A program made the translations under genes and the position numbers. From Chlorobiaceae bacterium (GTDB lineage: Bacteria; Bacteroidota; Chlorobiia; Chlorobiales; Chlorobiaceae), in the NCBI GenBank assembly GCA_013334975.1, contig JAAXWL010000006.1, positions 1 to 51,178 on the forward strand: a stretch of DNA of 51,178 bases, read 5' to 3'. The notes beneath the pieces are model-generated. The model was given only the letters and a program-made list of their open reading frames with translations. It was not told where the DNA came from and made no database searches. Below, in pieces: positions 61-43,442 of the stretch (position 1 is its first letter; every line of letters begins with the position of its first letter).

Positions 61-332
61 CTGTTTTATCAAGCTTAAATTGACGTATTATTTAGCCATT
101 GATTTTATCCAAATCAAAATCCAAATCGGTATCGGTATCGGTATCGAAATCGATTTTTTATGTAAAAAAACAGAAAACCTGCTTCTGGCTGTATCAGTTT
201 AATTATCCGGTGGTTATGGTAATAAACCACAAGTCACGGTGAGTTTTGCATAAGACTCTTCAAGTGGAACCCGATACCGATACCGATTTCGATGATAAAA
301 GAAAATCTCACTATTTACCATTGACCCGTTGG
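61..332 (+). repeat. Hexamer-array TA element, copy A (MITE-like)
   Basis: Left end TA-ctgttttatcaagcttaaattgacg; left array aaatcggtatcggtatcggtatcgaaatcg; right array gataccgataccgatttcgatg; right end ctatttaccattgac. Same layout as the other copies. Confidence 0.8.
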
Positions 333-533
333 GACACTGCACTACTGTTGCATCAACGGCAAAACTTGGCTGTTGTGAGGCTATGGCTGAATGAGAGGAT
401 GAATCGGAATGCAAGGGAGGTGTTTCGTGGAATTGATATCCTGACGTGCCACCCCTTCCATTCATAGACACTCACCTGAATTGAGTATATTGCAGTTCAA
501 ATCCAAGTAAAACATTATCAATCAATTCTATCA

Positions 534-1421
534 GTGTCATCAATGAAGAAAGTGCTTGTGGCTGGCGCTACCGGTTATCTCGGTCGTTATGCGGTGCAGG
601 AGTTTAAAAATCGCGGGTACCAGGTGCGAGCGTTGGTGCGCAACCCCGAAAAGTTCAAAAAGCCGGGGCCGTTCTTTGCGCCGTCTATCGAGACTCTCGT
701 TGACGAGGTGGTTTTCGGTGATGCGACCAAACCTGAAACCATTACCGGCCTGTGTGATGGCATCGATGTGGTGTTTTCGTCTCTCGGCATGATCAAGCCC
801 GACTTTGAACACACCAACTTCGATGTTGATTATCAGGGAAACATGAATATTCTTGCGGAGGCGCTGAACTCCGGGGTCAAGAAGTTCATCTACGTCTCCG
901 TTTTCGAGGCGCACCGCATGATGAACATTCCCAACGTGCAGGCGCACGAAAAGTTCGTCAGGGAGCTGCAGGCCGCCTCTATCGAGAGCACGATTATCCG
1001 CCCGAATGGCTTTTTTTCAGAAATTGGCCAGTTTGTTGCCCGTGCACGGCGTGGTTACATGATCTGGGTTGGCGACGGATACCAGCGCCAGAATCCTGTT
1101 CATGGTGCTGACCTCGCAGCGGTATGTGCCGATGCGGTTGACCGCAGTGATCGGGAGATCGAGGTCGGTGGCCCTGAAGTTTTTACCTACCACGAAATGG
1201 TCGATCTGGCCTGCGAAATTGCGGGCGTCCAGCCGTTGCTGCTCCCGTTGCCCTTCTGGCTGGCTGATGGCCTTGTGGGCGTGGTGGGGCTTTTCAATCG
1301 TGACGTGCACGATGTGGCTCTTTTCGCCACCACCCTCAGTAAAATGGATTTCGTTTCACCGAAATACGGCACCCATCGTCTGAGAGATTTTTTCAACGAA
1401 TGCAAGTCCCTGCCGATCTGA
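534..1421 (+). CDS. NAD(P)-binding SDR / NmrA-like epimerase family protein
   Basis: N-terminal Rossmann motif VLVAGATGYLGRYAVQEF and NmrA-like layout over 295 aa. Confidence 0.85.
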   Translation: MSSMKKVLVAGATGYLGRYAVQEFKNRGYQVRALVRNPEKFKKPGPFFAPSIETLVDEVVFGDATKPETITGLCDGIDVVFSSLGMIKPDFEHTNFDVDYQGNMNILAEALNSGVKKFIYVSVFEAHRMMNIPNVQAHEKFVRELQAASIESTIIRPNGFFSEIGQFVARARRGYMIWVGDGYQRQNPVHGADLAAVCADAVDRSDREIEVGGPEVFTYHEMVDLACEIAGVQPLLLPLPFWLADGLVGVVGLFNRDVHDVALFATTLSKMDFVSPKYGTHRLRDFFNECKSLPI

Positions 1422-1559
1422 GGCAGATGGAGAGGTGAGCGGCGTCTCTCTGGGGTACCAGGTTGCAGCGCATTGAACTGTATCAACACTGAATTGACCT
1501 GTGAGGCGGGGGAGGTGAGCGTTATCTATCAGAATGTAAAGTTGTCAAGAAACACTGTT

Positions 1560-1818
1560 GCCATGTCGGGTGAGTTTTGCTTTTACTTCTTTCAAGTGGA
1601 AATCGGTATCCAAATCGGTATCGGTATCGAGTTCCACTTGAAAGAGGCTGATATAACTCACCGGGTATTATGGTTTATCGTGATAATCATTTGATATTTA
1701 AACAGATACAGATAGAGGCGGGTTTACTGTTTTACATAAAGAATCGATATCGATACCGATACCGATCTGGATATATAAATGACTCCGTAGTATACGTCAT
1801 CATAAGCTTGACATGGTA
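1560..1818 (-). repeat. Hexamer-array TA element, copy B
   Basis: Reverse complement carries the family left end (ccatgtcaagcttatgatgacgtatac) and GGTATC array. The other end has an inverted duplication of the tcaagtggaa...ttccacttga segment; that boundary is approximate. Confidence 0.7.
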
Positions 1819-1866
1819 CTGGTGTCAGTGAGCCATACTTCAGCAGAATCGTTGCATAGCGGTATT

Positions 1867-2913
1867 TTACCACCGGTACCCGAGCCTCATCCGCCAGGTC
1901 GTGTCCCAGGGCTCGTTGCCGACTGGTGCATTGCTGTTGTAGCCGGTTTTGAATTCGGCACTGGTCTGGAGGCCGCCAGCGATGGGGATTTTGATGCCGG
2001 TCCAACTGTCGAAGGTCAATCCGCCTTCTTTGGCGAGGCTGAGAAGACCTTTGTTGCGATGGTAGATTTCCACTTTACCCGGAATGACAAAATGGCTGAA
2101 GTCCATTCTCCAGGCATCTGAGAGGAAGTATTGGGTGGCGCGGGAGTGATAGCTTTCCGAGGTGTATTCCAGACCGGTTTCGGCGCTGAGCCGGGTCCGG
2201 TTGTTGCCGAAAAGGTTCCATCCGGCATAGGGGCCTGCGCTCCATCGATGGTCAAGTGCAGTTATTCTGTTTGTTTTGAAGGAGGTTGTCGCTCCGTAGT
2301 AGAGGTTCTTCGAGAAGTGGCTGTCCCACGTTGTCTCGATAGAACGGCGGCTCAGGGTTTCGATATTGTTTGTTTTGTCGTATTCGATTTCACCAGCAAG
2401 CCTTACCCTGTGTGTCAGTTTTTTCCATTCGAGGTTGGATGAAAGATTGATACGGTTTTCATGTGTGTTGCCACGATCGAGTTTCAGTGCAAGGTTGATC
2501 TCTCCGGTAATTCTGGCTGCTTTTCCAGTTTCCCAGTCATCGGGGTTGATTTGCGTCAGGTTGAAGGCCGGTTCTATTCTGTTGTCGAGCAGAAGGTTGG
2601 TTTCATTGCGGTTCAGGGATTTGACCGGTATGGTGCCGTTGCCGGTCAGGCGGATCTTCATCGGTTCTTCCGACCGGATTTCACGCACCTTTTTCCAGTC
2701 TATGCCGATTGTTCCAGCGTAGTCAGTCCTGAATTGCAGGATACCGTCGCTCATGCGTAAGACCGTGCCGGTCAGTCGGTCGCCGTTGTCCAGAACAATC
2801 GTCTGGGCGCCAATGGCAGGGGGGGCCGACATCAAAAGGACGGTGCACAGGGCAATTGCAAGGCGATGATGCGGGCTGGCAGACATGACGTTGGTTAACT
2901 TTTGTTTATTCAT
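1867..2913 (-). CDS. DUF481-type outer-membrane protein
   Basis: 371-aa ORF. Probable start is the internal Met (MNKQKLTN...) before a signal-like segment; VLDNGDRLTGTVLRMSDGILQFRTDYAGTIGIDWKKV followed by a beta-strand-rich C-terminus ending in an aromatic residue. Confidence 0.75.
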   Translation of the reverse strand: MNKQKLTNVMSASPHHRLAIALCTVLLMSAPPAIGAQTIVLDNGDRLTGTVLRMSDGILQFRTDYAGTIGIDWKKVREIRSEEPMKIRLTGNGTIPVKSLNRNETNLLLDNRIEPAFNLTQINPDDWETGKAARITGEINLALKLDRGNTHENRINLSSNLEWKKLTHRVRLAGEIEYDKTNNIETLSRRSIETTWDSHFSKNLYYGATTSFKTNRITALDHRWSAGPYAGWNLFGNNRTRLSAETGLEYTSESYHSRATQYFLSDAWRMDFSHFVIPGKVEIYHRNKGLLSLAKEGGLTFDSWTGIKIPIAGGLQTSAEFKTGYNSNAPVGNEPWDTTWRMRLGYRW

Positions 2914-3169
2914 CGCCCCAAAATAGCCAGAGATATCATTTTGCGAAAGTGGTTGTTTGATCTCCTCATGTCGTTCCGTCATTTATGGCAATCATCGGTT
3001 TCCGGCGGTTGTTTTCCTTTTTTTCTTGCAGTACGAGATTTCAGTGGTCGGGGTAGTGCAGGGTTGTTTTCATGTTTTTATTCAGACATTATCGTTAACG
3101 TTGAGTGGTTGTCAAAGGAGGATTGTATGAAGATGGTCGTTTCTAACATATAAACCGGGAGGATGTCTC

Positions 3170-4108
3170 ATGTCTTCAACGAATCTTTTTACGGTAGCAA
3201 CTGTTCGTGCCTCGGTGGACGGAAAGACGACGGAGTTTCTTTTTAACGAAAGTCCGCAGATTTTCAGGCTCGAACAGATGACGGCAAGCGTGGTCCGTTC
3301 GGTTCCTCACATCACCGAGGCTTTTAGTAAGAATATGCCGGTCAGACTTGACATCGATCCGGTGAAAGGGGTGATCAAAAAAATCCGTCCGGCGACAGAG
3401 GACGGGTTCAGGTTATTGGTGACGGAGCGAGGCAAGCTGGAAAACCCCCTGAAGCCGAAAAAGATCGATGTATCGAAGATTGACCACAATACGTTCAACG
3501 TTATCGACCAGTATCTTGATTTTTCTGTTTTTTCGCTCTGCAAAAAGGATGTACCAAACTATGCCAGGACGAGGGAGATATTCGATTACTGCGCAGCGCA
3601 GTCGTGCACCCTGCCCGATCCTCATGAGGTCAATCCCTGCATTCCGTTCCAGTACGTTATCGATGGCTGTTATGCGAGAGCTCACCAGATGCGCCGGATC
3701 ATCACCACCAAATACAAGTATTGCTGTGAGAAGGTTTTCAGTTTTGCGAACAACGATCTCGATACCCTCGCGGTGCAGGCTTGCAAATGGGGTGGTTGTT
3801 GTGTCAGATGGTGGTATCATGTCGCTCCGCTGGTCAGGGTCAAGGTTAAGATCGGTACGTGCAGCCTGAGACTCGCCATGGTCATCGACCCCGGTATGTT
3901 CGACAGGCCTGTTTTGCTGGGTGACTGGCTTGCCGCACAGGCAAACACGGCCTGCACTCCGAACGCAAGGGTGACGATGTACTCAATTCAGCCCGGTTCG
4001 GCATACAGCCCGGCCAATTATGAGGGGACGGCATATTCGACAGACGATGACTATGTGTTAACCGAAGAAACGCTGACGGAGTACAGGGATCTGACGACCT
4101 GTCATTGA
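3170..4108 (+). CDS. Protein-glutamine glutaminase-like protein (protein deamidase) with retained pro-region
   Basis: DGCYARAHQMRRI...CEKVF...CCVRWWYHVAPLV...MVIDPGMFD matches the Cys-His-Asp core of Chryseobacterium protein-glutaminase as remembered. Cys167 at 3668-3670, His217 at 3818-3820, Asp240 at 3887-3889. RBS-like gggagg upstream of the ATG. Confidence 0.8.
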   Translation: MSSTNLFTVATVRASVDGKTTEFLFNESPQIFRLEQMTASVVRSVPHITEAFSKNMPVRLDIDPVKGVIKKIRPATEDGFRLLVTERGKLENPLKPKKIDVSKIDHNTFNVIDQYLDFSVFSLCKKDVPNYARTREIFDYCAAQSCTLPDPHEVNPCIPFQYVIDGCYARAHQMRRIITTKYKYCCEKVFSFANNDLDTLAVQACKWGGCCVRWWYHVAPLVRVKVKIGTCSLRLAMVIDPGMFDRPVLLGDWLAAQANTACTPNARVTMYSIQPGSAYSPANYEGTAYSTDDDYVLTEETLTEYRDLTTCH

Positions 4109-4207
4109 GTCGAAGCGGCAACGTTATCAACGCCAGACTGAGTGATCAGGCCTGTCGGTCAGAGGTGAGGGCGCCAGAGACAGGTATCTTCTGGCGTTAT
4201 ACCAGGA

Positions 4208-4400
4208 GTGTTCTGTCACGCTTAAACTGACGTTTGATGAGGAGCCATTGACTTATCCAAATCCAAATCGGTATCGAAATCGGTATCCAAATCGATTTTT
4301 TTCCCTGAGAAAACCATGTACTGTTGGCGTACTATAATTTTTTTTCGATACCGATACCGATGATAAAGGAAATTTCGACTATTAACTGTTGACGCGACAC
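4208..4400 (+). repeat. Hexamer-array TA element, copy C
   Basis: gtgttctgtcacgcttaaactgacg left end, GGTATC and GATACC arrays, right end ctgttgacgcgacac-TA. Confidence 0.8.
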
Positions 4401-4405
4401 TAGCA

Positions 4406-4675
4406 ATGAGCGATGAACATCAGGGAGAGGGGGCGCCACGCTATCGGCGACGGATGAGGGTTGCCGCTCTGCGGCAGCGGGAGGAGTGCTGTTACGATGA
4501 GGTCGTGTTTCTGGAATCGGCCAGGTTGTATCGTCTGATGAAGCAGTACCCGGCTTACCGGTCGATGCTGCAAAAGCTCCGGAAAGCTCAGTTGGATGCC
4601 ATTCCTGTGACGATAGGGCTCGAGTCCGTCGAGGGGGATATTATCGTAGAGGTACGGGAGGAGGGTTCCGGATGA
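4406..4675 (+). CDS. Small hypothetical protein
   Basis: 89-aa ORF with no recognised domain; begins 4 nt after the TA of copy C. Confidence 0.45.
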   Translation: MSDEHQGEGAPRYRRRMRVAALRQREECCYDEVVFLESARLYRLMKQYPAYRSMLQKLRKAQLDAIPVTIGLESVEGDIIVEVREEGSG

Positions 4676-4680
4676 GCTGG

Positions 4681-5880
4681 TCAGCGTTCAGGGGGCGTGT
4701 TTTCCCGAGCGGTTCTGATCCATGCTCCGCTTTTTTTACGGATCATCATGGCGGCATAGAGGGGAATTTTCCAGAGAACGTAGAAGGGTGCGGCCATAAG
4801 CACGAGCCAGGTTGATGGAGGCGCTTTGCGCTGTATCTGCCCCGAGAGGACGTAGAAGACAAGGATGAGCCACCATGAGGCGACGCAGGCAAGCCAGTAG
4901 CCCTTGAGCAGAGGGATTGCCATAAGCGAGACGAGTGCGAACAGCAGGGCGAGCAGGGAGAGTGGCGGCGTGACCAGTTCGGCGAAGGCGACGAGGAATC
5001 GAGATTGACCGGTGCGCAGAAACAGGCCGAGAAGCGGCATTGCCGTGGTTCTGACCAGTTTGAAGCGCCCGCTTTCCCATCGATTGCGCTGGCTCGATGC
5101 GTTCTTGGAGGTGGTAACCATGTCGCTCCGGACGACGGCATCCGGGTTGTAGTGTACGGCGATTTTCTGCCGGAGCAGTTGCAGGCTGAATTCCATGTCT
5201 TCGACGATGGAGTGGCAAGGCCAGCCAGTCGTTTCAAGCAGGCTTCTGCTGAAGGCCATGCCATTGCCTTTGAGCACGCAGGTGCCGGACAATGTGCTTG
5301 GGCCTGCCATGCGGAGGTGGTTGAAGACGTTGAAGGCTGCGTCGAGAAGTCCCGGTCGCCATCCCGCCCCGGGGTTGTTGACCCCGTTGAAGGCTTGCAG
5401 GGCCTCTACACCTTTCTGGCTGAAGGAGAGGCTGATCTCCCGGAGGTAGTTGCGGTCAGCCTGGACGTCAGCGTCGATGATGGTGATGACCTCGACGTGC
5501 TGATACGATCGGCTTTGTGTTCGCAGGAACCAGTCGAGCGCCTGCCCTTTTCCCCGGTTGACGATGTCGGTGCGTTCGGCAACGATAGCGCCTGCGTTTC
5601 GGGCCATCTCGGCCGTGCGGTCGGTGCAGTTGTCGGCAATAACGAAGATGCTGGTCAGCTCTTTCGGGTAGTTGCCGGTTCTGATGCTTTCGATGGTGCG
5701 CACGATCCCCTCCTCCTCATTATGCGCAGGAATGAGCACGCCGATGCTGAGCAGGCGGTTTGTTTCGGTGGCCTTTTTTCTGAAGAGATAAGCGGCGAGG
5801 GTGACCACCAGGAGATAGGCTGCGGGAAGAGAGAGAACAACGATCAGCAGCCTGACGATGAGTTCGGCGATCTGGATCAT
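4681..5880 (-). CDS. Family 2 glycosyltransferase, membrane-associated
   Basis: VLIPAHNEEEGIVRTIESI...VIADNCTDRTAEMA...DADV...QRNRWESGR plus C-terminal TM helices. Confidence 0.88.
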   Translation of the reverse strand: MIQIAELIVRLLIVVLSLPAAYLLVVTLAAYLFRKKATETNRLLSIGVLIPAHNEEEGIVRTIESIRTGNYPKELTSIFVIADNCTDRTAEMARNAGAIVAERTDIVNRGKGQALDWFLRTQSRSYQHVEVITIIDADVQADRNYLREISLSFSQKGVEALQAFNGVNNPGAGWRPGLLDAAFNVFNHLRMAGPSTLSGTCVLKGNGMAFSRSLLETTGWPCHSIVEDMEFSLQLLRQKIAVHYNPDAVVRSDMVTTSKNASSQRNRWESGRFKLVRTTAMPLLGLFLRTGQSRFLVAFAELVTPPLSLLALLFALVSLMAIPLLKGYWLACVASWWLILVFYVLSGQIQRKAPPSTWLVLMAAPFYVLWKIPLYAAMMIRKKSGAWIRTARENTPPER

Positions 5881-7097
5881 GGCTGGTTCATTTCGTTCCG
5901 GAAGTGTGTGACAAGCTGATCGTTGTTTTGATGCTGGTTGTACATCAGGGTGACCTTCTGCCTGCCGGCATGGCCGAAACGGGTCCGCAGCAGAGGATCG
6001 GCAAGCAGTTTTCTGATCTGCACAGCAAGGTCTGAAGGGTCGCCGGGTACAGCCAGCAGTCCATCCTCTTCATGCTCGATCAGCTCGGGAATACCGGTGA
6101 TGCGGGTCGAGATGACCGGAATCTCCTTGGCCATCGCCTCCATAAGGACCACAGGCACCCCTTCGGCGAAGCTGGCCAGGACGAAAAGGTCGGCGCGGTC
6201 GTAGTGTGCTCTCACCTTGTCCTGACCAAGTGCTCCGGTGAAGAGTACCTTTCTTTCGAGACCCAGTGAGGTTGCGAAAGCTTTGAGGGAGTCGCGGTCG
6301 GGTCCATCGCCGACGATGGTCAGATGGAAAGGGAGTCGCTCCCGGTCGAGCATGGCGCAGGCTTCAAGCAGGATGTGCTGTCCCTTTGCCGGTACCAGCC
6401 TGCCGACGCAGAGCAGTTCGGGTACGGCATTGTCGGGCTCCGGCCTCGGTGTGTAGAGATCAGGATCGATACCGCAGCGGACGATGTGGAAACGATGCCA
6501 GTGATCAACGTCGCTGATGCGCATGATCTGGCTGCGGCAATAGTGGCTGATGCAGCGCACGAAGGCAGCCTCGCGCACCTTTTCGGGAAGCATGGCCGAG
6601 TCCACCGTGTAAAAGATGTCGGGGCCGTGCACCGAGATGCTAAAGGTGAGGCCTCCGTAACGCTTCATGAGCATGGCGACGATGGCCGTGGGGTTGCCGA
6701 AATGCTCGTGGAGATGGGTGATGCCGTTCTGGTGCGCCCAGCGGAGCAGGATACCAGCTTCGGCGAAATAGGCTGCGGCCTTGACGGGATTTTTAGGGCC
6801 GGTAAAGAGCAGCCTGAAGGCATCCAGTGCCATGTTCAGGTACCCCCCGGGATTTTTCAGGAGGCAGTGCAGGTGCGCTGTTGCGATGGAGGTCACCGGT
6901 TGCGAAAGCACCATGAGGGTGTTGGCCGCCTCCTTCTGTTCGGCAGGGGTCATGATGTCGAGCTTCTCCGGCTTGTGGATCGAGGCCGTGAACACGGTCA
7001 TGCCGGCTTTGCGCAGTGATTCGATCTCCCGATAGATGAAGGTGTGGGAGATGGCCGGGTATTCACTGCACAGATAGGCGATGGGTTTGTTGGTCAT
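5877..7097 (-). CDS. Family 4 (GT-B) glycosyltransferase
   Basis: Start at MTNKPIAYLCSEYPAISHTFIYREI gives a 4-nt overlap with the upstream gene; LLCVGRLVPAKGQHILLEA...FVLASFAEGVPVVLMEAMAKEIPVI. The longer listed ORF is an N-terminal over-extension. Confidence 0.88.
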   Translation of the reverse strand: MTNKPIAYLCSEYPAISHTFIYREIESLRKAGMTVFTASIHKPEKLDIMTPAEQKEAANTLMVLSQPVTSIATAHLHCLLKNPGGYLNMALDAFRLLFTGPKNPVKAAAYFAEAGILLRWAHQNGITHLHEHFGNPTAIVAMLMKRYGGLTFSISVHGPDIFYTVDSAMLPEKVREAAFVRCISHYCRSQIMRISDVDHWHRFHIVRCGIDPDLYTPRPEPDNAVPELLCVGRLVPAKGQHILLEACAMLDRERLPFHLTIVGDGPDRDSLKAFATSLGLERKVLFTGALGQDKVRAHYDRADLFVLASFAEGVPVVLMEAMAKEIPVISTRITGIPELIEHEEDGLLAVPGDPSDLAVQIRKLLADPLLRTRFGHAGRQKVTLMYNQHQNNDQLVTHFRNEMNQP

Positions 7098-9285: not shown

Positions 9286-9296
9286 GGTGGCAGCTT

Positions 9297-15164: not shown

Positions 15165-16912
15165 GCAGATCGTTTTTTGAATGGGAGAAGCTCCAGGGTT
15201 CTTGTTTTTTCATTTTCGCTGAACACGAAATGCCAAAACAGAGCTGCGCTTGAAAGGACGAAAAACGAGCCGCACGCGACGATCTGGATCAGGAGAGAAA
15301 TCCGGCTGGTCTCTGGCCAGAGTTCTGATATACCGAAAATCAGCAGTGCCGGACCAAGAGGCATCATTGCCGGCAGGAGGCTGTGGGCAAGAAATTTTCC
15401 TGTGCTAATGCTGAAGCTCTTGTTGCTGCGCCAGATGATGAACATGGTGCTGAAGAGGGAGCTGGCGGCTATCGAGGCGGCTGAACCGGTCAGTCCCCAG
15501 GCGTAGGTGCCGGCAGGAATCCATGTCACCATGAGCAGGGTCTGCACCAGCATGTATTCGAATTCACGTCCGTTTTTGTTGATGCCTTTGAATAACATGG
15601 TGACCGGTCCTGTGCAGAGCTGGACCGAATAGGCTATGGAGAGGAAGATCATGATGTTGGCGGCTTCGGGATAATCAGTCCCCACCCAGACGTCGATAAG
15701 GGGATGAGCCATAGCGACAAGGAAAACGAACAATATCGAGTTGAGAATGTTGGTGAAACGGATGCCATCGAGATAAAGCACTCTGAGATCGGGGCTGTCG
15801 AGACGACCTTCACGATTAAAGGAGCGATTGAGGCTGACGAGAAGCAGAATCGTTGCTCCTGATGCTATGAGTGCAATGATACGGTTGTCTGCAGGAAGCC
15901 ACGCTTGAATCCTGTCAAGAAAAAGTACCGGAATGAGCGCAATCGTTGCCGTTGTCAGTACGATATGCAGGTAGCTGAAGCTTCGCTCTTTCACGGTTTT
16001 CCATTTCCCGTCGCTCCATACCCCTTCGAGGTGAGCAGCCGTTGAGAGGAAGGGGCCAAAAGCTGACGAAGAGATACCTCCGGCTGTTGAGGGCAGTTTC
16101 CTGCCTATTTCGAACATACCTCCGGCTGTCAGTCCCAGGATGGCTGTAATGAACATCCGGTCAACGGCGGTCAGGAAGATGCCGAGAATGCCAAGGATCT
16201 GGACTTTACCACCAAAACCAAAAAAGTGCTTCAGGTGCTCCCGGCTGAACAAACGCAATGATACCTGCAACGATGGCAGAATTGAGCGGGCGATCTTCCA
16301 GCAGCCGAGCGTTTCGAGGACAAGGCGTATGGCGAAGGCATAGAGCAGTCCTTTGACTCCAGCGCCGAGGTACAGAAAGCTGACGATCGCAACGATCTCT
16401 ATCAGGCCGGCGATGGTTGAGACGGTTTTTTCTTTTGCGAATTCATGCATGCCGTTGACAATGAACCGGAATCCCCCGAGCGTGAGTTCAAGGCTGAAAA
16501 CCACGGCAGTGCCAAGAATGAGCGTTGAGGCAAGCGAGCGTTGTTCAGGCTCGATGTTGAATCGCTCAAGAATGAAGGGCATCAGAAGGGAGAGACCGAT
16601 GAAGAAGAACAGGCAGAAGGCGAACATGTAGGTTATGCCGGTTGAGAGCAGACTGCTGACCTCTTTTTCACGACCCTCGGCCAGGTACCGCGCAGTATAG
16701 CGGATATAGGTACTGTTGACTCCGAAACCACCCATTCCTGCATAGGAGAGGATGATGAAACAGAGTGACCAGAGCCCGAACTCGCTCAGCGACAGGTAGT
16801 GCAGGATGAGGGGGGTGAGCAGGAGTCGGCTTACCATATAGATAATGGTGGCAGCCATTCCCGATAATGCGTTGCCGGCCAGCTTTTTCTGTGCGTTTTC
16901 CTTTTGGCTCAT
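15158..16912 (-). CDS. Polysaccharide flippase (Wzx/MATE-like)
   Basis: 584 aa with about 12 or more TM segments; N-terminal LAGNALSGMAATIIYMVSRLLLTPLILHYLSLSEFGLWSL. Confidence 0.82.
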   Translation of the reverse strand: MSQKENAQKKLAGNALSGMAATIIYMVSRLLLTPLILHYLSLSEFGLWSLCFIILSYAGMGGFGVNSTYIRYTARYLAEGREKEVSSLLSTGITYMFAFCLFFFIGLSLLMPFILERFNIEPEQRSLASTLILGTAVVFSLELTLGGFRFIVNGMHEFAKEKTVSTIAGLIEIVAIVSFLYLGAGVKGLLYAFAIRLVLETLGCWKIARSILPSLQVSLRLFSREHLKHFFGFGGKVQILGILGIFLTAVDRMFITAILGLTAGGMFEIGRKLPSTAGGISSSAFGPFLSTAAHLEGVWSDGKWKTVKERSFSYLHIVLTTATIALIPVLFLDRIQAWLPADNRIIALIASGATILLLVSLNRSFNREGRLDSPDLRVLYLDGIRFTNILNSILFVFLVAMAHPLIDVWVGTDYPEAANIMIFLSIAYSVQLCTGPVTMLFKGINKNGREFEYMLVQTLLMVTWIPAGTYAWGLTGSAASIAASSLFSTMFIIWRSNKSFSISTGKFLAHSLLPAMMPLGPALLIFGISELWPETSRISLLIQIVACGSFFVLSSAALFWHFVFSENEKTRTLELLPFKKRSAC

Positions 16913-16913
16913 A

Positions 16914-17163
16914 GTGTTGCGTCAACGGTAAATGGTCGGAATTTCCTGTATCATCGAAATCGGTATCCAAATCGGTATCCAAATCGAAAAAAGAAGGTCA
17001 TAGTACGCCAACGGTACGTGAGTTTCTCGGAAATTGAACTGATACAGCAAGAATCCGGGTTTCTGTTTTCACATAAATAATCGATACCGATACCGATACC
17101 GATTTCGGTCTGGATAAAGTCAATGGCACTTTAACATACGTGAACTCAGGCTTGACATGACAA
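16914..17163 (-). repeat. Hexamer-array TA element, copy D
   Basis: Flanked by TA at 16912-16913 and 17164-17165; right end TA-GTGTTGCGTCAACGG, left end (reverse complement) TA-TTGTCATGTCAAGCC; facing hexamer arrays. Confidence 0.88.
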
Positions 17164-17191
17164 TAGGATGGGGTATGGTAAGGTCAGGAGA

Positions 17192-24137: not shown

Positions 24138-24526
24138 CGTTTTTTCGGTGAGTCGGGTGCGTTGCCAAATGAAGCGACAGCCTCCCGGGAGTTGGAAAAA
24201 ATGGAGAAGAGCTTTTTTGCCTGGGTGAGTTCGAACACCATGGCAACCTTTTCATTCAGTCCGGAAAGCTTCAGGTCGCCCTCTTTTTCGAGTGCTTTGC
24301 GGAGGCAACCGACGATGACGCCAAGTCCGCTGCTGTCGATGAAATCGAGTTCAGCGCAATCGAACACCTGAAGCGCTGTTTTTTCAAGCCATTCAGTGAA
24401 ATTTTTCTGAAATGACTTGCTGTTGTGGGTATCGAGTCTCCCTTCAAGTTTCACTATGCCGACGAGCTGGCCGGCTACGTTGTCGAGACTGAATTGCATG
24501 TCGGGTTCCTTCTTGTGTAGCGTCAC
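24134..24526 (-). CDS. STAS-domain anti-sigma factor antagonist
   Basis: FDCAELDFIDSSGLGVIVGCLRKAL; overlaps the next gene by 4 nt. Confidence 0.9.
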   Translation of the reverse strand: MTLHKKEPDMQFSLDNVAGQLVGIVKLEGRLDTHNSKSFQKNFTEWLEKTALQVFDCAELDFIDSSGLGVIVGCLRKALEKEGDLKLSGLNEKVAMVFELTQAKKLFSIFSNSREAVASFGNAPDSPKKR

Positions 24527-24696
24527 CGCTGAATTGAGGTATGAAATGGTACAGTTGATTTATCGAAGTCGAAATCGGTATCGGATTTTTCCATAATAAA
24601 ATAAAACCTGCTTCTGACTGAATCGGTCATAAGATCAAGGTGTTATGGTAATTAATCACCATTTCGGGTGAGTTTTTTTTACCGTTACCGTGACCC
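24520..24696 (+). repeat. Hexamer-array TA element, copy E (degenerate, right array lost)
   Basis: TA at 24518-24519 and 24697-24698; ttgatttatcgaagtcgaaatcggtatcgg and ...ggtgagttttttttaccgttaccgtgaccc-TA. Confidence 0.65.
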
Positions 24697-25445
24697 TAAT
24701 ATGCTCCCCGGCCGCTGAGCACGGCAGGGATAGTTTTCAGAAGAAGATGCAGATCACGGATGACACCTGCGCTCTGGATATACTGGAGATCCAGCCTGAC
24801 CTGATCGGTGAACGGGATGTCGCTTCTGCCGCTGACCTGCCAAAGGCCGGTGATTCCCGGAATGGCATGAAGGCGCTTGCGCTGTTCAAGGGTATACTGA
24901 GCGACTTCGCCAGGCAGTGGCGGCCGTGGCCCGACAAGGCTCATATCGCCTTTGAGTACGTTGATCAACTGGGGGAGTTCGTCAATGCTGAACTTGCGGA
25001 TAATCCTGCCGGTACGGGTGATTCTCGGGTCTTTTTTCATTTTGAAAATGACTCCGTCAGCCGACTCGTTCTTTGCGGTGAGTTCAGCCTTGATCTTGTC
25101 GGCATTGACGATCATCGACCGGAACTTGTAGAACCTGAAGTGTCTGCCGTTTTTTCCGACTCTGGGCTGCACAAAAAAGACCGGACCGGGATTTTCAATA
25201 ACGATGCAGAGCGCCGTGATCGCAAAAACCGGGAAAAGCGCAATGAGCGCAAGGGATGAGACGATCAGATCGAGCACTCTTTTCATCAGGTAGGAGAGGC
25301 GGATGGTGCTTTCCCATGCAATAACTTTCAGCTTGCCCCGGAACCGGAGCGAAGGTCTGATGTTGTCGCCAATTTTCCGTATGAGTTCACGGCGGACAGT
25401 CGGGTCGAGTTCCATGTTTTCAGCGGTTGAAGCTTCGGCTGACAA
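24696..25445 (-). CDS. Undecaprenyl-phosphate sugar phosphotransferase (PHPT, WbaP/WcaJ-like small form)
   Basis: MKRVLDLIVSSLALIALFPVFAITALCIVIENPGPVFFVQPRVGKNGRHFRFYKFRSM...SIDELPQLINVLKGDMSLVGPRPPLPGE...GITGLWQVSGRS. Confidence 0.92.
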   Translation of the reverse strand: MSAEASTAENMELDPTVRRELIRKIGDNIRPSLRFRGKLKVIAWESTIRLSYLMKRVLDLIVSSLALIALFPVFAITALCIVIENPGPVFFVQPRVGKNGRHFRFYKFRSMIVNADKIKAELTAKNESADGVIFKMKKDPRITRTGRIIRKFSIDELPQLINVLKGDMSLVGPRPPLPGEVAQYTLEQRKRLHAIPGITGLWQVSGRSDIPFTDQVRLDLQYIQSAGVIRDLHLLLKTIPAVLSGRGAY

Positions 25446-30625: not shown

Positions 30626-30856
30626 TTTTCTGAGATGTTGACAGGTATCGGGCAGAGCGCCCGTGAAGAGTGCGCGGAGGCAGGTATTCCTGGAATGGTC
30701 ACGGATTGCAGCCGTTTACTACCGGTTGCATTCAGCCCGAGGTTGTCGCCGGTACACGCATTCCTGTTTTTCAGGCTCATCGGTGGTTATTGCGTGAGCA
30801 CCCCTTCTTCAGGAACGATGTCCTGGCAATAATAGGAGGTGGTGGCGTTGCGGGGT

Positions 30857-31020
30857 CGTGCCCTCTCACGCTTATACTGACGTATGATACGGAGCCATTG
30901 ATTTATCCAAATCGAAATCGATTTACTTTATACCTGATTATGGCGTTATCTTTCAGAATTTAAATAAATTATGACTCTTTCTCATGATACACGGCGAGTT
31001 TTTTTGCTTTGAGGCGACCG
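30857..31020 (+). repeat. Hexamer-array TA element, copy F (deleted right array)
   Basis: gtgccctctcacgcttatactgacgtatgatacggagccattgatttatccaaatcgaaatcg left half; right end gctttgaggcgaccg-TA is the inverted-repeat match. Confidence 0.65.
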
Positions 31021-32075
31021 TAGTGTACGTGAGTATGAAAACAGCAGCGAAAAAAAAATTAACGTTTCGAGAGTGAATCATCACAAAGCTTCGCTGCTTT
31101 CAAACACAGTTGTTTGAATACCATGAACACCTGGGAATGTTTGCTCGAGTCAATTGTTTATTTTGCTTGCCGGAAGATGGTCCCGGTCTGGAGCATTCCG
31201 GAATGTCTTCTTATTACTTTCTGCCGGACTCTGACGCTGCTGTTCAGTACCTTTTATCATGCCTGTTCAGGTTCGTTGAAAACAATCAGCAGTTTTTCTG
31301 TTTTCTGATTTAATATCATCACGAATCGACGTGTTGTTGGCGAAATTGCGGTAATCGTAATCGCATATACCGCACAGAGAGGGTTTTTTATGAGTAAGAG
31401 TCATATATCATAGAATCTTACGTTATCCGTTAATCAAATGCAACCTCTATTTTCAGGGTACCGTTCCTTGTTTCTCGTTATTTTAGATGATTTTACGGAG
31501 TCGAATCCCAGAGGGTCACTTTTATCCGGGAGGGTTCGGAAGATATATGCCTGCAGACCAGATATTTTTTTGAGACGGCCATCCAGTTACAGCCTCTGCC
31601 GCTCAGTGGATTTTTTGCATCAAAGGCTATGGAGAGCATTGATTCTTATGCTTTATTTCCTGTATGCCGGTATACGGAAAAGAGCTGTTAGAGAAAACCT
31701 TCACGATGTCAAAATCAGCTTTCGGGATCACCAGAAATCGCTCTCTTTCGGGATCATCGATGATCCGCTAAGGTTTTGAGAGGACGCGAGGAGCCGGTTC
31801 CGCACAGCAAGTCGTGTTCATCATGAGATTCTGCTTTGTTTGATCTGGCTTTTCTTTTTCGGGAAAGCAGGGTTTAAGCCTTTTTTTACCCATGATTAAT
31901 GCCGGATTAAGAAAAAGCGCTTATACTTGATGGTATTTAATCGATCCGGATGCTCTGAATTGGGAAGTACCCAAGAGAACAGGTGTGTGATGCCTCTCAT
32001 CTGAAGGGATGCTGGCATCAGGGAGTGTATTTCCGGATTACCTTATTTATCTCTAACATTTCAGGGAGAATTTCC

Positions 32076-32955: not shown

Positions 32956-33636
32956 ATGAGACTTCTCATTATCGAAGATGAACCGGGTATTGCCCGTTTT
33001 CTCAAGGAGGGCCTCGAAGAGGAGTGCTTTGCTGTCGATGTTGCCCATGATGGCAGAACCGGACTCGACCTGGCCATGACCAATGAGTATGATCTTGTTC
33101 TTCTGGACTGGATGATTCCTGGAATCAGCGGTATCGAGGTCTGCCGACAGATTCGAAAGTCCGGCAGCAATGTCCCGGTCCTTTTTCTTACTGCAAAAGA
33201 TACACTTGAGGATGTTGTTTTCGGACTTGATTCGGGAGCGAACGATTATATCAGGAAACCTTTTGAATTTGAGGAGCTGCTTGCACGCATCAGGGTTCAG
33301 CTAAGGAAACCCGGTCAGGAGGGAGAGATACTGAGCGCATGCGGCCTGACGATCAATATTGTCACCCATCAGGTATTCTGCGGTTCAAACGAGGTGATGC
33401 TTACGCCCAAGGAGTTCTCCTTGCTTGAGTATCTGGTGCGTAACAAGGACCGGGCCTGTACCAGAAGCCGGATCATCGAGCATGTCTGGGATATGCATTT
33501 CTATTCGGATACCTCGGTCATCGATGTCTATATCAATTTTCTGCGCAAAAAGCTTGAACAGGCAGGATGCAGCAATATTATCCAGACGATCAGGGGCGTG
33601 GGGTACATCATCCGTGAATCCTCGTCGGTCGGGTAG
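32956..33636 (+). CDS. OmpR/PhoB-family response regulator
   Basis: MRLLIIEDEPGIARFLKEGL...LVLLDWMIPGISGIEVCRQIR...LFLTAKD...RKPFEFEELLARI and winged-helix C-terminus TPKEFSLLEYLV. Confidence 0.95.
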   Translation: MRLLIIEDEPGIARFLKEGLEEECFAVDVAHDGRTGLDLAMTNEYDLVLLDWMIPGISGIEVCRQIRKSGSNVPVLFLTAKDTLEDVVFGLDSGANDYIRKPFEFEELLARIRVQLRKPGQEGEILSACGLTINIVTHQVFCGSNEVMLTPKEFSLLEYLVRNKDRACTRSRIIEHVWDMHFYSDTSVIDVYINFLRKKLEQAGCSNIIQTIRGVGYIIRESSSVG

Positions 33637-34262
33637 TGCCATGTCAAGCTTATGATGACGTATATTACGGAGTCATTTGTTTATCCGAATCGAAATCGAT
33701 TCTTTATGTAAAAAAAGAACGGCGGCTTATGGCTGTATCTCTCTGATTCCTGAGAAACTCATGTGCTGTTGACGTATTATGAACTTTTTTTCGATTTTGA
33801 TACCGACTCCGATTTTTCAACTTTCCATGAAAATGCACGATCTATCAAGTAATTAGCCTGATTTGGCCTGTCATGCTGAATGAAATGAAGCATCCAGTCG
33901 AAACGCCTCGGTGCTACTCTAAAGAACTGGATTCTTCGTCGGCAAGGCAGCTCAGAATGACACACAAAAACAAGTCTCACATTATCCTGTCATCGCGATG
34001 GAGCACATTGTTCAAGGTCTGTGTGCGTTAGCCGACCGGATACCGGAGGCTATTGACTATCCATTGTCTTCTCTCGTCACTTGTCAACTCATCGAGTTTC
34101 TGTTTCACTGAGAAGAACGACGTTCTTTGCTTGTTATCAATTATTTATCACAATAATACACAATAACCGGTGAGTTTTTTTCAGCCTCTTCAAGTGGAAC
34201 TCGATACCGATACCGATTTCGATGATAAAGGAAATTCCGACTATTTACCGTTGACACGACAG
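33636..34262 (+). repeat. Composite hexamer-array TA element, copy G/H, between response regulator and kinase
   Basis: Left end TA(33634-33635)-gtgccatgtcaagcttatgatgacg; right end ctatttaccgttgacacgacag-TA(34263-34264); interior carries a further palindromic repeat. Confidence 0.85.
33862..33962. repeat. Nested imperfect inverted repeat of the GTCAT(T/G)CTGA type
   Basis: cctgtcatgctgaatgaaatgaagcatccag ... ctggattcttcgtcggcaaggcagctcagaatgaca: facing imperfect arms, similar to common bacterial interspersed palindromes. Confidence 0.7.
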
Positions 34263-34266
34263 TAGT

Positions 34267-35742: not shown

Positions 35743-35847
35743 TTTTCAGTCAATTTTAAGAACCCTTTCAGCCACTTTTAATCTTTGCACTCTATTTTTG
35801 ATGGTGACAGATTGTTTCAGGACACTCGGGAAAAATTTCTGGTGGAT

Positions 35848-36426
35848 ATGTTGAATTCAGTTCTCGTCAGCCGGGCTTTGCCGCTTGCGCTTTCATACCT
35901 CTTGCTGGTGGTTTGCACCTGGTCGGTTGACCTGGTCCTTCACAAAGCAGGGCTCGCTTGGACGGGTCGTTATCTTGGTGTTGCCGGAGCGCTGCTCGTG
36001 GCCATCTCCTTCAGCTATTCAGCACGGAAACATAAACTCACAGGGCACGGTATCCTGAAGCACTTTCTCAGATTTCACTCCAACGCAGGCTGGCTTGGAA
36101 CCTTGCTGATTCTGGTTCATTCCGGCATACATTTCAATGCCCTGCTGCCGTGGATGGCGACCGGCCTTCTGATGGTGGTGAGCGCCAGTGGACATGTCGG
36201 CCAGTATCTGGTGTGCAGAATCAGGGATGAGGTGAAGCAGAAAAAAAAACACTACGGTATCGCTGGCGATCGTACCGATGGCCTCGAGCAGCAGTACTTC
36301 TGGGATTCGGTGACCTTAGGGGCTTTCGAGAAGTGGCGTTTCATACACATGCCACTGGTGACTTTTCTGGGGGTGCTGACTCTTGTCCATCTGGCCACGA
36401 TAACCATATTCACGAACTGGAGGTGA
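35848..36426 (+). CDS. Cytochrome b-like membrane protein
   Basis: TM segments with conserved His (HSNAGWLGTLLILVHSGIHF..., HMPLVTFLGVLTLVHLATI); upstream of a multiheme cytochrome. Listed ORF starts at 35785. Confidence 0.55.
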   Translation: MLNSVLVSRALPLALSYLLLVVCTWSVDLVLHKAGLAWTGRYLGVAGALLVAISFSYSARKHKLTGHGILKHFLRFHSNAGWLGTLLILVHSGIHFNALLPWMATGLLMVVSASGHVGQYLVCRIRDEVKQKKKHYGIAGDRTDGLEQQYFWDSVTLGAFEKWRFIHMPLVTFLGVLTLVHLATITIFTNWR

Positions 36427-36430
36427 ACCG

Positions 36431-37300: not shown

Positions 37301-37830
37301 CGATCATAGCCAAAGAAGAGGGGACGTTGAGAAAGCGCCGATGAAAACCGGCAAAGAGTAGAGAATGAAAGAGTCATACATGAAAGGCATAGCCACCCAT
37401 CATGGCCCCGAGTCATGCCTCGACCTACAGCAATAGGGTGGGGAAGCGTTGACAGGGCAACACACCGGCAGGAAATTGAACTCCGAAATCACCTCAATTC
37501 GCAGGCTGACCCTGTTCAAGGAAGGGGAAAGCAACATCAGATTTACCATCAAGGCGAGGTACGGAAGGCTGCGGCGGATCCCGACAAGTCGGGACCATGC
37601 ATGTGAAGAAGCTCTTTGCACGGGAATCGGGAGACCCGGTAAGCCCCCTGCCCGGAGGCAAACGGAAGCAGGGCGGCATCGATGAAGGAGAGAACCCGAA
37701 GAATCGATGCTGAAACAAACCGGGAGTCGGATGGTGGCGTAGTACCAAAGAAGCAACCGAACAAAGAGAACCCTGAAGCTTTGGAGGATGTGGAGAGAAA
37801 GCCAGCGGAAGAACACAGAGCCAAAACCCG

Positions 37831-39179
37831 ATGTCTTGCAGACTCGAAGGTGTGGGAAGAAGAGCCAAAGAAGACAAGACCTGCCGCTTCACGGCCTTAC
37901 TGCATCACATCACCCCCGAACTGTTGAGAGCCAGCTTTTATGAGCTGAATCGTAAAGCAGCGGAAGGGATAGACGAGAGAAGCTGGGAAGAGTACGAAGC
38001 ACAGCTCGAAGAACGCCTGCCGAAGCTGCACGAAGAAATCCACAAAGGCAGAGCTACCGGGCCCAACCGGTCATGAGAGTATATAATCCCGAAGCCAGAT
38101 GGCCAGAAGCGCCCACTGGGTATAACGGCCATAGAAGACAAGGTTGTATAACAAGCCGTCGTGACGGTGCTGAACGAGATATACGAACTCGAATTCTACG
38201 GATTTTCGTATGGATACCGGCCAGGCCGAGCCCCGGAAAACGCGCTGGATGCATTGGCAACCGCGATACTGAAACGTCCGATCAACTGGATACTGGACGC
38301 GGACTTGCAAAAATTCTTCGACAGCATTCCGCATGACAAGCTGATGGAAATCATCAGGATACGAGTCGGCGATAAAAGGATACTGCGCTTGATCGGGAAG
38401 TGGCTCAAGACGGGATATATCGAAGATGGGAAACGATACCGGCAGATGGCAGGCACACCGCAGTGGTCCCGACTTGTCGGGATTCGCCGCTGCTTGCCAA
38501 CATCTATCTTGACTACGTGGTGGACGAATGGGTCGAAAAAGAGAGACGCCGCCGGAACAACGACGAAGTCATCATCATCAGGTACGCCGATGATCTTGTG
38601 ATGGGATTCCAGTACAAGACAGAAGCGGAACGATACCTAAAAGCCCTGAATGAACGAGTAGAAGAGTACGGATTAAAGCTGCACCCCGAGAAAACGAGCC
38701 TGAAAGAGTTCGGAAGATATGCCGAAGAAAGGCGAAGGAAACGAGGGGAGGGTAAGCCAGAAGGGTTTGACTTTTTGGGCTTTACGTATCTATGCAGCCG
38801 AAACCGGAAAGGCGGGTACTTTCTGAAACGAAAGACGAAGACAAAGAAAATGCGACTGAAGTTGTCGGAGCTTAAAGAAGAGCTGATGAAACGAAAGCAC
38901 GCGCCAATACAGCAGACAGGAAAGTGGCTGAAAAGCGTAGTACAGGGACATGGGCTGTACTTTGGAGTACCAGGCAACAGCAAAGCATTAAGCAGTTATA
39001 GGGATCAAGTGGTAAAGATGTGGCTGAAGATACTGAGAAGACGAAGTCAGAAAGGAAAGTCCCTGACATGGGAAACGTTCAACCGGATCGTAGACAAATA
39101 TATTCTGCACCTCCGAATATGCCAGCCTTTCCCGGAGTTAAGATTCGCTATGACTCAAGGCAGGAGCCGTATGCGGTAG
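37831..39179 (+). pseudogene. Group II intron reverse transcriptase/maturase pseudogene
   Basis: FTALLHHITPELLRASFYELNRKAAEGID; IPKPDGQKRPLGITAIEDKVV*QAVVTVLNEIYE; DADLQKFFDSIPHDKL; SPLLANIYLDYVVDEWV; RYADDLV. In-frame stops at 38074 and 38149 and a frameshift at the 38467 palindrome. Confidence 0.88.
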
Positions 39180-39196
39180 TGCCGCATGTACGGATC
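39164..39196 (+). ncRNA. Group II intron domain V
   Basis: gagccgtatgcggtagtgccgcatgtacggatc closely resembles the canonical bacterial domain V hairpin. Confidence 0.8.
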
Positions 39197-39231
39197 TGTA
39201 CGGTGGGGGGCCGGGTAACTGGTATCCCTAC

Positions 39232-40489
39232 CGTGACGTTCAGCGGCGCTCGAATCTGGGTGTTGATTTCGGCGATCATTCTGGCGTCGGTGGGCCTGAA
39301 CATGAACTCGACGGCGGTCATCATTGGTGCGATGCTGATCTCGCCGCTCATGGGGCCGATCAACGGCATGGGCTACAGCATCGCGACCTACGATTTTCCG
39401 CTTCTCCGTAAATCCTTCTGGAACTTCACCTTCGCGGTAGTTTCGAGTCTGCTTGCCTCGACGCTCTATTTCGCTATCAGTCCGCTCTCCATCGCTCACT
39501 CCGAGCTGCTGGCCCGAACGAGTCCGACCATCTACGACGTGCTGATAGCACTCTTCGGCGGCCTGGCTGGCTCGATCTCCCTGACCACGAAGCTCAAGGG
39601 TAACGTGGTGCCGGGCGTGGCGATCGCCACGGCGCTTATGCCCCCGCTCTGCACAGCGGGTTACGGCGTGGCCACCGGTCAGTTCACCTTCTTTTTCGGA
39701 GCGCTCTACCTTTTCGCGATCAACAGCGTCTTCATCGGGCTGGCAAATGTCGGCTTCGCGAAGGTGATGCGCATTCCCCTGCGCTCCTCTCTCGATGCAG
39801 AAAAACGCACCCGTATCAACCATATGATTACGGCGGTCATTCTTGTCACACTGATCCCGAGCGTCTATTTCGGCTACGTGCTTGTCAGGAAAGAGCATTT
39901 TATCGACATGGCCACGCGTTTTGTCGGTACCGTCAGTCTGTTCAAGGGTGATTTCCTGCTTCGATACGAAATCGATGGCGACGCTCGCGCGATTACGATG
40001 GTTTATGGCGGCCACCCGTTGACCAGCGACGACAAGGTGGCATTGAGCAGGCGTGCCAGGGAGTTCGGTCTCGAAAACGCGATTCTGAAGTTCGAGCAGG
40101 GGCTGGTGATCGGTAATGACGAGGCGTTTCAGGACAAGCTGACCCAGATGGAGAAGACGGATCGCCAGAAACTTGAAATCGCCCGTCTCAACGCGGCGCT
40201 GCAAGCGAATCTCCGGCAGCAGGATAGCCTGTACCAGGTCAGTTACACGGGCTTGAAGCTACTCAACGAGCTCAAGCCGCTCTTCCCGCAGATTACAAGC
40301 AGCCTCTACGCCGAGCCGTATCTTTTTTCGGACAGCACGGGAGCGAAACCGTTGCAACGAACTTATGTGCTTCTTTCATCATCCAAACCCGTCAATATAG
40401 CCGACCGGAATAAAATCGAACGCTGGCTCAAAGCGCGGCTGCAGAACGACAGCCTGCGCGTGGTGTTTGAAGGGGATCCGAGTCAATAG
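39232..40489 (+). CDS. DUF389 membrane protein lacking its usual N-terminus
   Basis: VTFSGARIWVLISAIILASVGLNMNSTAVIIGAMLISPLMGPINGMGYSIATYDFPLLRKS...GNVVPGVAIATALMPPLCTAGYG. The listed ORF start at 39020 is inside intron sequence. Confidence 0.85.
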
Positions 40490-40748
40490 TGCTTGAGGAC
40501 GATGCCGGACGTTGATGACTGATTACACAAGAAGAAAAAGTGTAAAAAAGCGGGGGGGATGAATCAAAGAAAGAGATGTCGACGTCGTTTGTGCGGGAAT
40601 ATGGGCTGACGTTTGACGATGCGGCCCGAAAGCCAGGAATTTAAAATTAAGAGGGCAGCCAGATTCTAAAGCGACACAGACGGTTAGCGGAAGAGTGTAG
40701 TGAGTCATCAACGTCCCCCTTGGATTGGTTTTCGTGTCCTCCGCCCTA

Positions 40749-41964
40749 TTGGTGCAACACAGTAAATAAGTCGCAGAAAAAGGTTAACTTGATCTTCATC
40801 AAAAAAACCAACCTATTTACTGATGAGGAAGTACAACGTTACCCTGACTCAAGAAGAGCGTGTCGAACTCGAATCCATCGGCAGAAAAGGCAACCAGAAA
40901 GCTCAAACGGTCTTATACGCATTGATTCTCCTGGCTTGTGACGAAGGCGCACATCAAACAGAGCGATCAACAAATCAGACGATTTCAAAAGTCTTGAAGG
41001 TGAGCATGAAAACCATTGACCGGGTAAAAAAGCGATTCGTCGAAGAAGGGCTTGAAGCAAGCATGACTCGCAAGCCGACGACGCGAGCCTTCTCAAGAAA
41101 AATCGATGGTGATGTGGAGGCCAGGCTGATTGCGCTGAGTTGTTCACCTGCCCCGGAAGGCCATGCTCGCTGGACACTCAAACTTCTTGCCGATAAGATC
41201 GTAGAGCTGAACTATGTCGATGCTGTTTCCTATGAAACGGTACGTCGTGCTTTAAAAAAAACGAGCTTAAGCCGTGGAAGCAAGTCGGCTGGGTGATTCC
41301 GCCGAAACAAAGCAGTGATTTTGTTGCGCAAATGGAGACGCTTCTGCATGTGTACAAGCAACCATACGACCCGCTCTATCCGGTAGTCTGTATGGACGAA
41401 TCACCCAGGCAGTTGATCGGTGAAAGCAGAGTTCCAATTCAAGCCAAGCCAGGAAGAGCCGCCCGATATGACTTTGAATTATGTCAGAAACGGCACGTGC
41501 AATATTTTTATCGCCACAGAACCGTTGATTGGCAAGCGACTGGTCAAGGTAACCGAAACCAGGAAAAAGCAGGACTGGTCGAGGTTTCTGAGTGACATTG
41601 CCAAGAAATACAAACATGCCGAGAAAATCACGCTGGTCATCGATAACCTCAACACCCATGTACCGGGTAGCTTTTACGAGACTTATGAACCGGAAAAAGC
41701 AAAAGCCTTATTGGATAGATTCGATTTTGTTTACACACCAAAGCATGGCAGTTGGCTGAACATGGCAGAAATTGAGTTGCGCGTTTTGTCCGGTCAGTGT
41801 CTTGATCGACGGATTGAGCATATCTCTGAAGTGAAGCGAGAAGTATCAGCATGGGAGCAAGAGCGTAACAATAAGGAGGCAACGATTAATTGGAGATTTA
41901 ATACTGCTGATTCACGTATTAAGCTCAAGCGACTTTACCCGTCCATTTGACTGTGATGCACCAC
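40749..41964 (+). mobile_element. IS630-type insertion sequence
   Basis: Terminal inverted repeats ttggtgcaacacagtaaat / (rc) gtggtgcatcacagtcaaat, flanked by TA at 40747-40748 and 41965-41966; encloses the split transposase. Confidence 0.85.
40823..41950 (+). pseudogene. IS630-family transposase, two frame changes
   Basis: ORFA (frame of 40823) to middle segment via the A8 run at 41254-41261 (plausible programmed -1), then a second change near 41479 (extra T) before IFIATEPLIGKRLV...VIDNLNTHVPGSFYE...YTPKHGSWLNMAEIE. Confidence 0.85.
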
Positions 41965-42015
41965 TAGTTCCAATCCCGAAACCCTGAAAATCTGATATCT
42001 GATACTCTGTAAGTT

Positions 42016-42050
42016 GAAAGAGCCGTCCCGACTTGTCGGGATGGTTCTTT
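42016..42050 (+). terminator. Hairpin plus T-tract downstream of the IS630 element
   Basis: gagccgtcccgac-tt-gtcgggatggttc followed by ttttttt. Confidence 0.6.
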
Positions 42051-42122
42051 TTTTGCATGGTGCAAAGCCAGAGCGTTGAGGTGGAGTGGAGGATTATTGA
42101 AGATGTGAAGCCTACGGCTTCA

Positions 42123-42148
42123 TGGCCATCCCGAAAGCTTTCGGGATG
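42123..42148. repeat. 26-bp perfect palindrome
   Basis: gccatcccgaaagctttcgggatggc is its own reverse complement. Confidence 0.8.
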
Positions 42149-42258
42149 GCGCTCCCGGAGGCGATGCCGATAGTGACTCTGACACAGAGAGGGGAGGGGA
42201 AGAAATACATCGCAAACCGTTGCCTTCAGGGGGTTGGGTAATAGTTGGTGATAAACTA

Positions 42259-42518
42259 CTGCCGCATCAACGGTAAATAGTCGTAATTTTATTTATCATC
42301 GAAATCGGTATCGGGTTCCACTTGAATGAGGCTGATATAGCTCGCCGGATATTGTGGCTTATTATGATAACCTCAAGGTAATTAAAAAGATACAGCCAGA
42401 TGCGGGTATTCTGTTTTCATATAAAAATCGATTTCGATACCGATACCGATTTGGATTTGGATAAAATCAATGGCGCTGGCGGCGTTGTATCATACGTTGG
42501 TATCCGCGTGATGTCTCA
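42259..42518 (-). repeat. Hexamer-array TA element, copy I
   Basis: TA at 42257-42258 and 42519-42520; right end TA-CTGCCGCATCAACGGTAAATAG; left end (rc) TA-GTGAGACATCACGC...ACGTATGATAC; facing arrays. Confidence 0.88.
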
Positions 42519-42589
42519 CTACCGTCATGTCAGGACAATAGTGACGCATAATAATCTTATATTATCTTGATCTTCAACCCAAACCTGGA

Positions 42590-43069
42590 TTGACCATGAA
42601 GAAGTACAAGGTAACCCTGACTCAGCAAGAGCGTCATGATCTTGAAGCCCTGAGCAGCAAGGGAAAACATGCTGCTCAGACAGTACTGTATGCCCTCATT
42701 CTGCTTGCCTGTGATGAAGGCACGTATCAAAAGCAGCGCTCAATCAATGAGACCATATCGAGTGTGCTCAACGTGGGCATGAAAACCATTGACCGCGTCA
42801 AAAAGCGTTTTGTCGAAGAAGGCCTGGAGGCTGTGTTGAACAGAAAGCCTTCATCAAGAAAGTTTCAGCCAAAGGTAGATGGTGATCTTGAGGCACATCT
42901 GATAGCTCTGAGTTGTTCAAAGCCTCCGGTCGGCCACAAGCGCTGGACTCTGCGACTGCTGGCCGACAAGTTAGTGGAACTGGAATATGTTGACCAGATA
43001 TCTCATGAAACCGTTCGGCAGACGCTCAATAAAACGAGCTTAAGCCCTGGAAAGAAGAACGCTGGGTAA
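42590..43069 (+). pseudogene. IS630-family transposase N-terminal fragment, 3' part missing
   Basis: MKKYKVTLTQQERHDLEALSSKGKHAAQTVLYALILLACDEG...KTIDRVKKRFVEEGLEAVLNRKPSSRK is homologous to the ORF at 40823; homology ends just before copy J. Confidence 0.85.
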
Positions 43070-43141
43070 TCCTGCCCCTCGCAGAATGTTGATTTTGTTG
43101 CCCAGATGGAGACTGTACTGGAGCTGTACAACCATGCCCTA

Positions 43142-43399
43142 TTGCCTTGTCACGCTTCAATTGATGTATGTTGTGGGTCGCTGAATAATCCAGATCGAGA
43201 ACGTAACCGATTGTTATCGATGAAAAAAGAACACCTTCTTGTGGAGTTATCTGTCAGAATGGAAATCTTTTATGACACTCTATCACCATATTTGGCGGGT
43301 TTTCTTTCGCCTCTGCAAATGGAACTCGATACTGATACCGATCCGGATTTCGATTTCGAAGATAAAGGCAATGACGACTTTTTGCCTTTGGTGCTATCG
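43142..43399 (+). repeat. Hexamer-array TA element, copy J
   Basis: TA at 43140-43141 and 43400-43401; ttgccttgtcacgcttcaattgatg left end; gatactgataccgatccggatttcgatttcg right array. Confidence 0.8.
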
Positions 43400-43442
43400 T
43401 AGTGAACCCATCGGCTGAAAATCATTAATACGCACCTGATGC

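Follow-up and report, generated by a model that had tools for sequence, protein, structure and literature searches.

The window, i.e. the whole 51,178-nucleotide stretch of Chlorobiaceae DNA analyzed here, is one contig of the 2.79 Mb draft genome (178 contigs) that was searched. It carries copies of a dispersed repeat, a putative MITE, and two IS630 copies. The shared architecture claimed in the preliminary description was found at all the loci listed there, each recovered at 1e-18 or better by a profile HMM seeded with full-length copies, mostly from outside the window (C was the only window copy among the seeds); G and H proved to be a single interrupted element. Elements A (59..344, + strand; nhmmer 5e-66, right end read from the sequence) and I (42257..42521, − strand; 2e-62) are full length; A is real but extends to about 344, beyond the previously given span of 61-332. 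Element B (1560..1820, − strand; 6e-53 and sequence) is rearranged: part of the core is present twice, in inverted orientation, on the two sides of an array. Elements E (24514..24698, + strand; 1e-18 and sequence) and F (30856..31022, + strand; 1e-20 and sequence) were said to have lost the right array; the array is indeed deleted, but both retain a right terminus, which is degenerate and ends in TA.

Three window elements contain sequence of a second, unrelated repeat family (family 2). In C (4206..4402, + strand; nhmmer 2e-25 and 1e-12), MITE ends enclose a core with the left part of family 2, whereas in D (16912..17166, − strand; 6e-52 and the family-2 motif), which adjoins the first ATG of a 584-aa ORF, this left part is joined to the MITE right array. 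Element G/H (33634..34264, + strand; nhmmer 1e-19 for G and 4e-36 for H) is one MITE split by family 2 and by a further repeat (CCTGTCATGCTGAATGAAATGAAGCATC...; 33803..34051, + strand); it lies between a response-regulator and a histidine-kinase gene, identified with Pfam, and its first G preserves a TAG stop. The further repeat has copies up to 98% identical in the same genome and copies about 80-90% identical in other species of the genus.

The first IS630-family element (40747..41966, + strand) has a frame-broken transposase with HTH and DDE_3 domains and diverged TIRs (TATTGGTGCAACACAGTAAATA / TAGTGGTGCATCACAGTCAAAT); TAGTGAGTCATCAACG at window position 40698 was rejected as its left end in favor of 40747. 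The second copy (42520..43139, + strand; left end TACCGTCATGTCAGGACAATAGTGACGCATAA) shares its first TA with the left-end TA of element I and is truncated where element J (43140..43401, + strand; nhmmer 4e-35 and sequence) begins at a TA inside the transposase gene. An Rfam search of the window yielded only a group II intron (group-II-D1D4-6, 37370-37589, + strand), with no match of the MITE to a known RNA family above the gathering score.

Copy number, termini and IS630 relatives

The genome contains 552 matches to the hexamer pattern ATCSRWATCSRWATCSRWATC and 0 to its reversed control, which excludes chance for this pattern. A sequence-only model identifies at least 92 strong MITE copies, and the total in the genome exceeds this number; in the 0.50 Mb that was inspected, in which copies are over-represented, the HMM detected 123 copies or fragments above 40 bits, 93 of them full-length. 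The repeat is thus about 270 nt long, dispersed, present in at least 92 copies and devoid of a transposase gene, as is characteristic of MITEs. Mean pairwise identity among copies is 74%, with the closest pairs reaching 98%, suggestive of prolonged activity. As in the preliminary description, which knew of no described family of this kind, no paper describing the element was found in a literature search.

In the consensus, TAGTGTCATGTCAAGCTTAAACTGACGTATGTTACAGAGCCATTGATTTATC is followed by a left array, an AT-rich core and a right array of opposite sense, with GATGATAAAAGAAATTCCGACTATTTACCGTTGACGCGACACTA at the far end. The terminal dinucleotide is strongly enriched for TA (T 0.80 and A 0.75 on the left, T 0.74 and A 0.75 on the right), and the bases just outside (C 0.48 on the left, G 0.43 on the right) indicate a weak CTAG target. 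An intact TA is present at a given end in 58-62% of the 93 full-length copies, far above chance; only 38 of the 93 retain it at both ends. Conservation is lower in the outermost 10 nt than in the arrays, the reverse of what selection on the termini alone predicts.

The N-terminus of the window transposase (P0001; HTH_32 and HTH_29 domains) has relatives in 14 other genomes, around several of which IS ends were read. Readable ends lie about 1219 bp apart, with TAGTGTCATGTCAATNTAATAGTGTCGCAT on the left and, in reverse complement, e.g. TAGTGTCATGTCAAGATTAAACTGACGGAT (L091) or TAGTGTCATGTCAATGCTAAAATGACGGATAGAGCCATTTAAGTTTAATCC (L100) on the right. Homology of the left ~52 nt of the MITE extends over the right terminus of a Chlorobiaceae IS630 subgroup and the last codons at the 3′ end of its transposase gene, and the right ~25 nt align to the left terminus of the same subgroup. 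For the MITE left end, alignment scores against IS right ends were 23-45 compared to shuffled maxima of 20-24, and for 5 of the 6 IS none of 1000 shuffles attained the observed score; in one example, 27 of 30 positions are identical to L091. At the MITE right end, the match is confined to the TIR and slightly beyond, and some scores were not significant. Because the two MITE ends align to opposite IS630 ends, the element is an internally deleted IS630 derivative. Judging from this homology, the repeat is very probably a high-copy, non-autonomous IS630-family element, and its ends tie it to a definite transposase subgroup; subgroups L036/L037 and L039-L042 were rejected as parents since their ends differ. 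Mobilization would occur in trans, with an IS630 transposase binding the MITE termini and inserting the element at TA by cut-and-paste. Both IS630 copies in the window are broken, and the 178-contig draft yielded no intact transposase from the matching subgroup; the family may therefore now be dormant in this genome, although a draft lacking an intact partner does not prove it dead.

The predominance of intergenic copies agrees with insertion of a mobile element, and so does comparison with relatives. When G000 sites were aligned to G001, a relative of the same genus, the MITE was absent from the orthologous spacer in 3 cases, and G/H is missing in six relatives, in three of which the flanking gene matches are 82-83 nt apart compared to 713 nt here. 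Orthologous spacers are too diverged to display an exact single TA; the sole clean case is a paralogue, namely that of a repeat-borne copy (q14), which has the same sequence with a single TA, at a site in low-complexity repeats. A second paralogous site (q70) is also empty, and in q37 two copies lie head to tail with one TA common to both. G001 itself carries one copy, for the flanks of which no orthologue was matched in the window's genome. Together with the end homology and the TA ends, the empty orthologous spacers and the single-TA paralogue bear out the initial reading of an IS630/Tc1-like MITE.

Variation, conservation and pairing of the arrays

The arrays are composed of GGTATC, GAAATC and CAAATC units (consensus left array: CAAATC, GAAATC, GGTATC, GGTATC, GAAATC) and comprise 2-7 units on the left and 2-6 on the right. 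As would be expected of the microsatellite-like behavior initially ascribed to them, length varies by whole hexamers, being a multiple of six in 76 of 93 left and 87 of 93 right arrays; unit number would shift through replication slippage. Such variation could also be produced by simple hexamer microsatellites expanding independently at many sites, but the 93 full-length copies have ends and core in common over about 270 nt, which refutes expansion without shared flanks, and the arrays are less, not more, substituted than other parts, so that this explanation is exceedingly improbable. Specifically, there are 0.24 (left) and 0.16 (right) substitutions per hexamer compared to 0.67 in non-array control windows allowed three spellings each, the same freedom as the arrays; elsewhere, only the stretches adjoining the arrays approach such low values. 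The arrays are thus among the least substituted parts of the MITE, with possible contributions from survivorship and alignment effects. No arrays were found in nine IS630 bodies, so they probably joined the element after its derivation from IS630.

The facing arrays had been proposed to form a long stem. Single-sequence RNA folds of the copies are indeed better than those of shuffled sequences (mean z −3), but the check for a consensus fold and compensatory changes went against the proposal: the consensus structure contains just four pairs, close to the right end and none spanning the arrays, and there is no covariation between array columns. Unit order in the facing arms is matched no better than in permuted units, and the lengths of the two arrays of a copy do not correlate. 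Nor was concerted evolution seen, non-canonical units being shared at 0.09 within an array compared to 0.10 between copies. Thus, unit spelling is conserved whereas precise pairing is not, and function through a long, precisely paired stem is not supported. Outward hybrid promoters, combining TTGACA at the MITE end with a flanking −10, were not enriched (1 vs. 1 of 33).

These results bear on the alternative that the copies are host-maintained, intergenic REP/BIME-like repeats, with an array hairpin in RNA or DNA acting on mRNA ends or termination and with only incidental transposon-like ends. The copies are mostly intergenic (66 of 70 testable copies, by an ORF heuristic), the folds surpass shuffles, and stand-alone hexamer inverted repeats, mostly without recognizable TIRs, occur in two other genomes (G019 and G017). 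Against it, the termini are TA-bounded and homologous to IS630 ends, the copies lack a conserved paired stem with compensatory changes, the facing arms match in unit order no better than permuted ones, and orientation relative to the gene strand is not clearly biased (23 vs. 14). We consider this alternative improbable compared to a MITE.

If the repeat is a MITE, its arrays could be pure passengers, tidied by slippage and unit turnover and serving neither mobility nor the host. Length changes in whole units and the uncorrelated lengths of the two arrays agree with such a passenger state, which is a possibility to be taken seriously, if somewhat doubtful given that homogenization was not seen and that arrays are also present around different cores, both in other species and in the second repeat family. 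Tentatively, we favor putative protein-binding tracts, for the transposase or a host factor, as somewhat likelier than either a hairpin function or pure passengers.

The second repeat family and arrays in related species

Family 2 (ATTCCTGAGAAACTCATGTACTGTTGACGTACTATGA...) was detected at no fewer than 27 places in the genome (control, 0), with its motif at window positions 4307-4337, 16998-17028 and 33752-33782 and at L239-L258. It has facing arrays of its own, in the opposite sense to those of the MITE, and no IS630 TIR. Hairpins are located close to both ends, of which the left one beats shuffles and the right one does not, and where family 2 lies inside a MITE core (L244 and G/H), no target duplication is visible. 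By its anatomy, family 2 resembles IS200/IS605-type elements. No partner was found: the genome has four REP-associated-tyrosine-transposase-like (Y1_Tnp) matches (L259-L262; matched segments below the NCBIfam cut-off), and these were rejected since no family-2 sequence lies near the four genes.

The separate core subtype to which C, D and G had been assigned dissolves into MITE plus the left part of family 2. Both C and D run from the MITE left half through the family-2 left part and a shared GATACC array to the MITE right end, the outcome expected from a deletion between same-sense arrays; presumably, family 2 inserted into the MITE core, after which same-sense arrays recombined and the intervening DNA was lost. 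The arrays appear to act as recombination points.

Within the genus to which the window belongs (g1), hexamer arrays are present at low number in most species, and there are hardly any in the neighboring genus. Six diverged elements were found in one genome (G013), several of which combine both arrays and the same right-terminus type with an unrelated core, and another (G009) has one element with a TTGATGCGACACTA end. Facing arrays are thus also present in other Chlorobaculum-type species, where the ends are similar but the cores unrelated. In G019 and G017, the compact hexamer inverted repeats mostly have no significant TIR nearby; either their ends have decayed or they originated independently. 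Stand-alone repeats of this kind (L155-L170) were observed in G019, G017, G005 and G015, several beside terminator-like hairpins.

A bolder reading, which we regard as rather unlikely but worth stating, treats the ATCGNN hexamer array as a functional module that can be transferred, probably a protein-binding tract. Two unrelated mobile families of this genome would have taken it up in facing orientation, and it would have persisted in Chlorobaculum-type species through changes of TIRs and cores.

Known layouts and significance of the arrays

In eukaryotic foldback elements (FB, TU), inverted repeats of short tandem units flank a single-copy core; their transposase and target are different, they are unrelated to bacterial IS630, and the resemblance to the present MITE would be one of layout only. 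To our knowledge, a bacterial MITE with variable tandem-repeat arrays has a layout otherwise known only from these elements.

Among bacterial elements, RUP is an intergenic MITE of 107 bp and ~100 copies, with TIRs matching IS630-Spn1 and a TA target, which inserts into IS transposase genes, and a review reports no further motif in it (PMC2229807). The present MITE, compared by architecture only, is similar in its high copy number, intergenic location, IS630-matching TIRs and TA, and in the position of J inside the second IS copy, but is longer (~270 bp) and has core variants as well as a pair of facing hexamer arrays. Correia/NEMIS elements share terminal TA, TIRs and high copy number with the MITE and give long base-paired transcripts; the same review describes no facing tandem-repeat arrays in them, the word 'tandem' being absent from it (PMC2229807), and such arrays set the present MITE apart. 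The element is thus of a known, RUP/Correia-like kind, and the facing, unit-variable arrays are what is new. These observations reveal variable tandem-repeat arrays within a bacterial MITE; with the arrays well conserved and recurring in a second mobile family, the role of repeat tracts in the spread of MITEs becomes directly testable.
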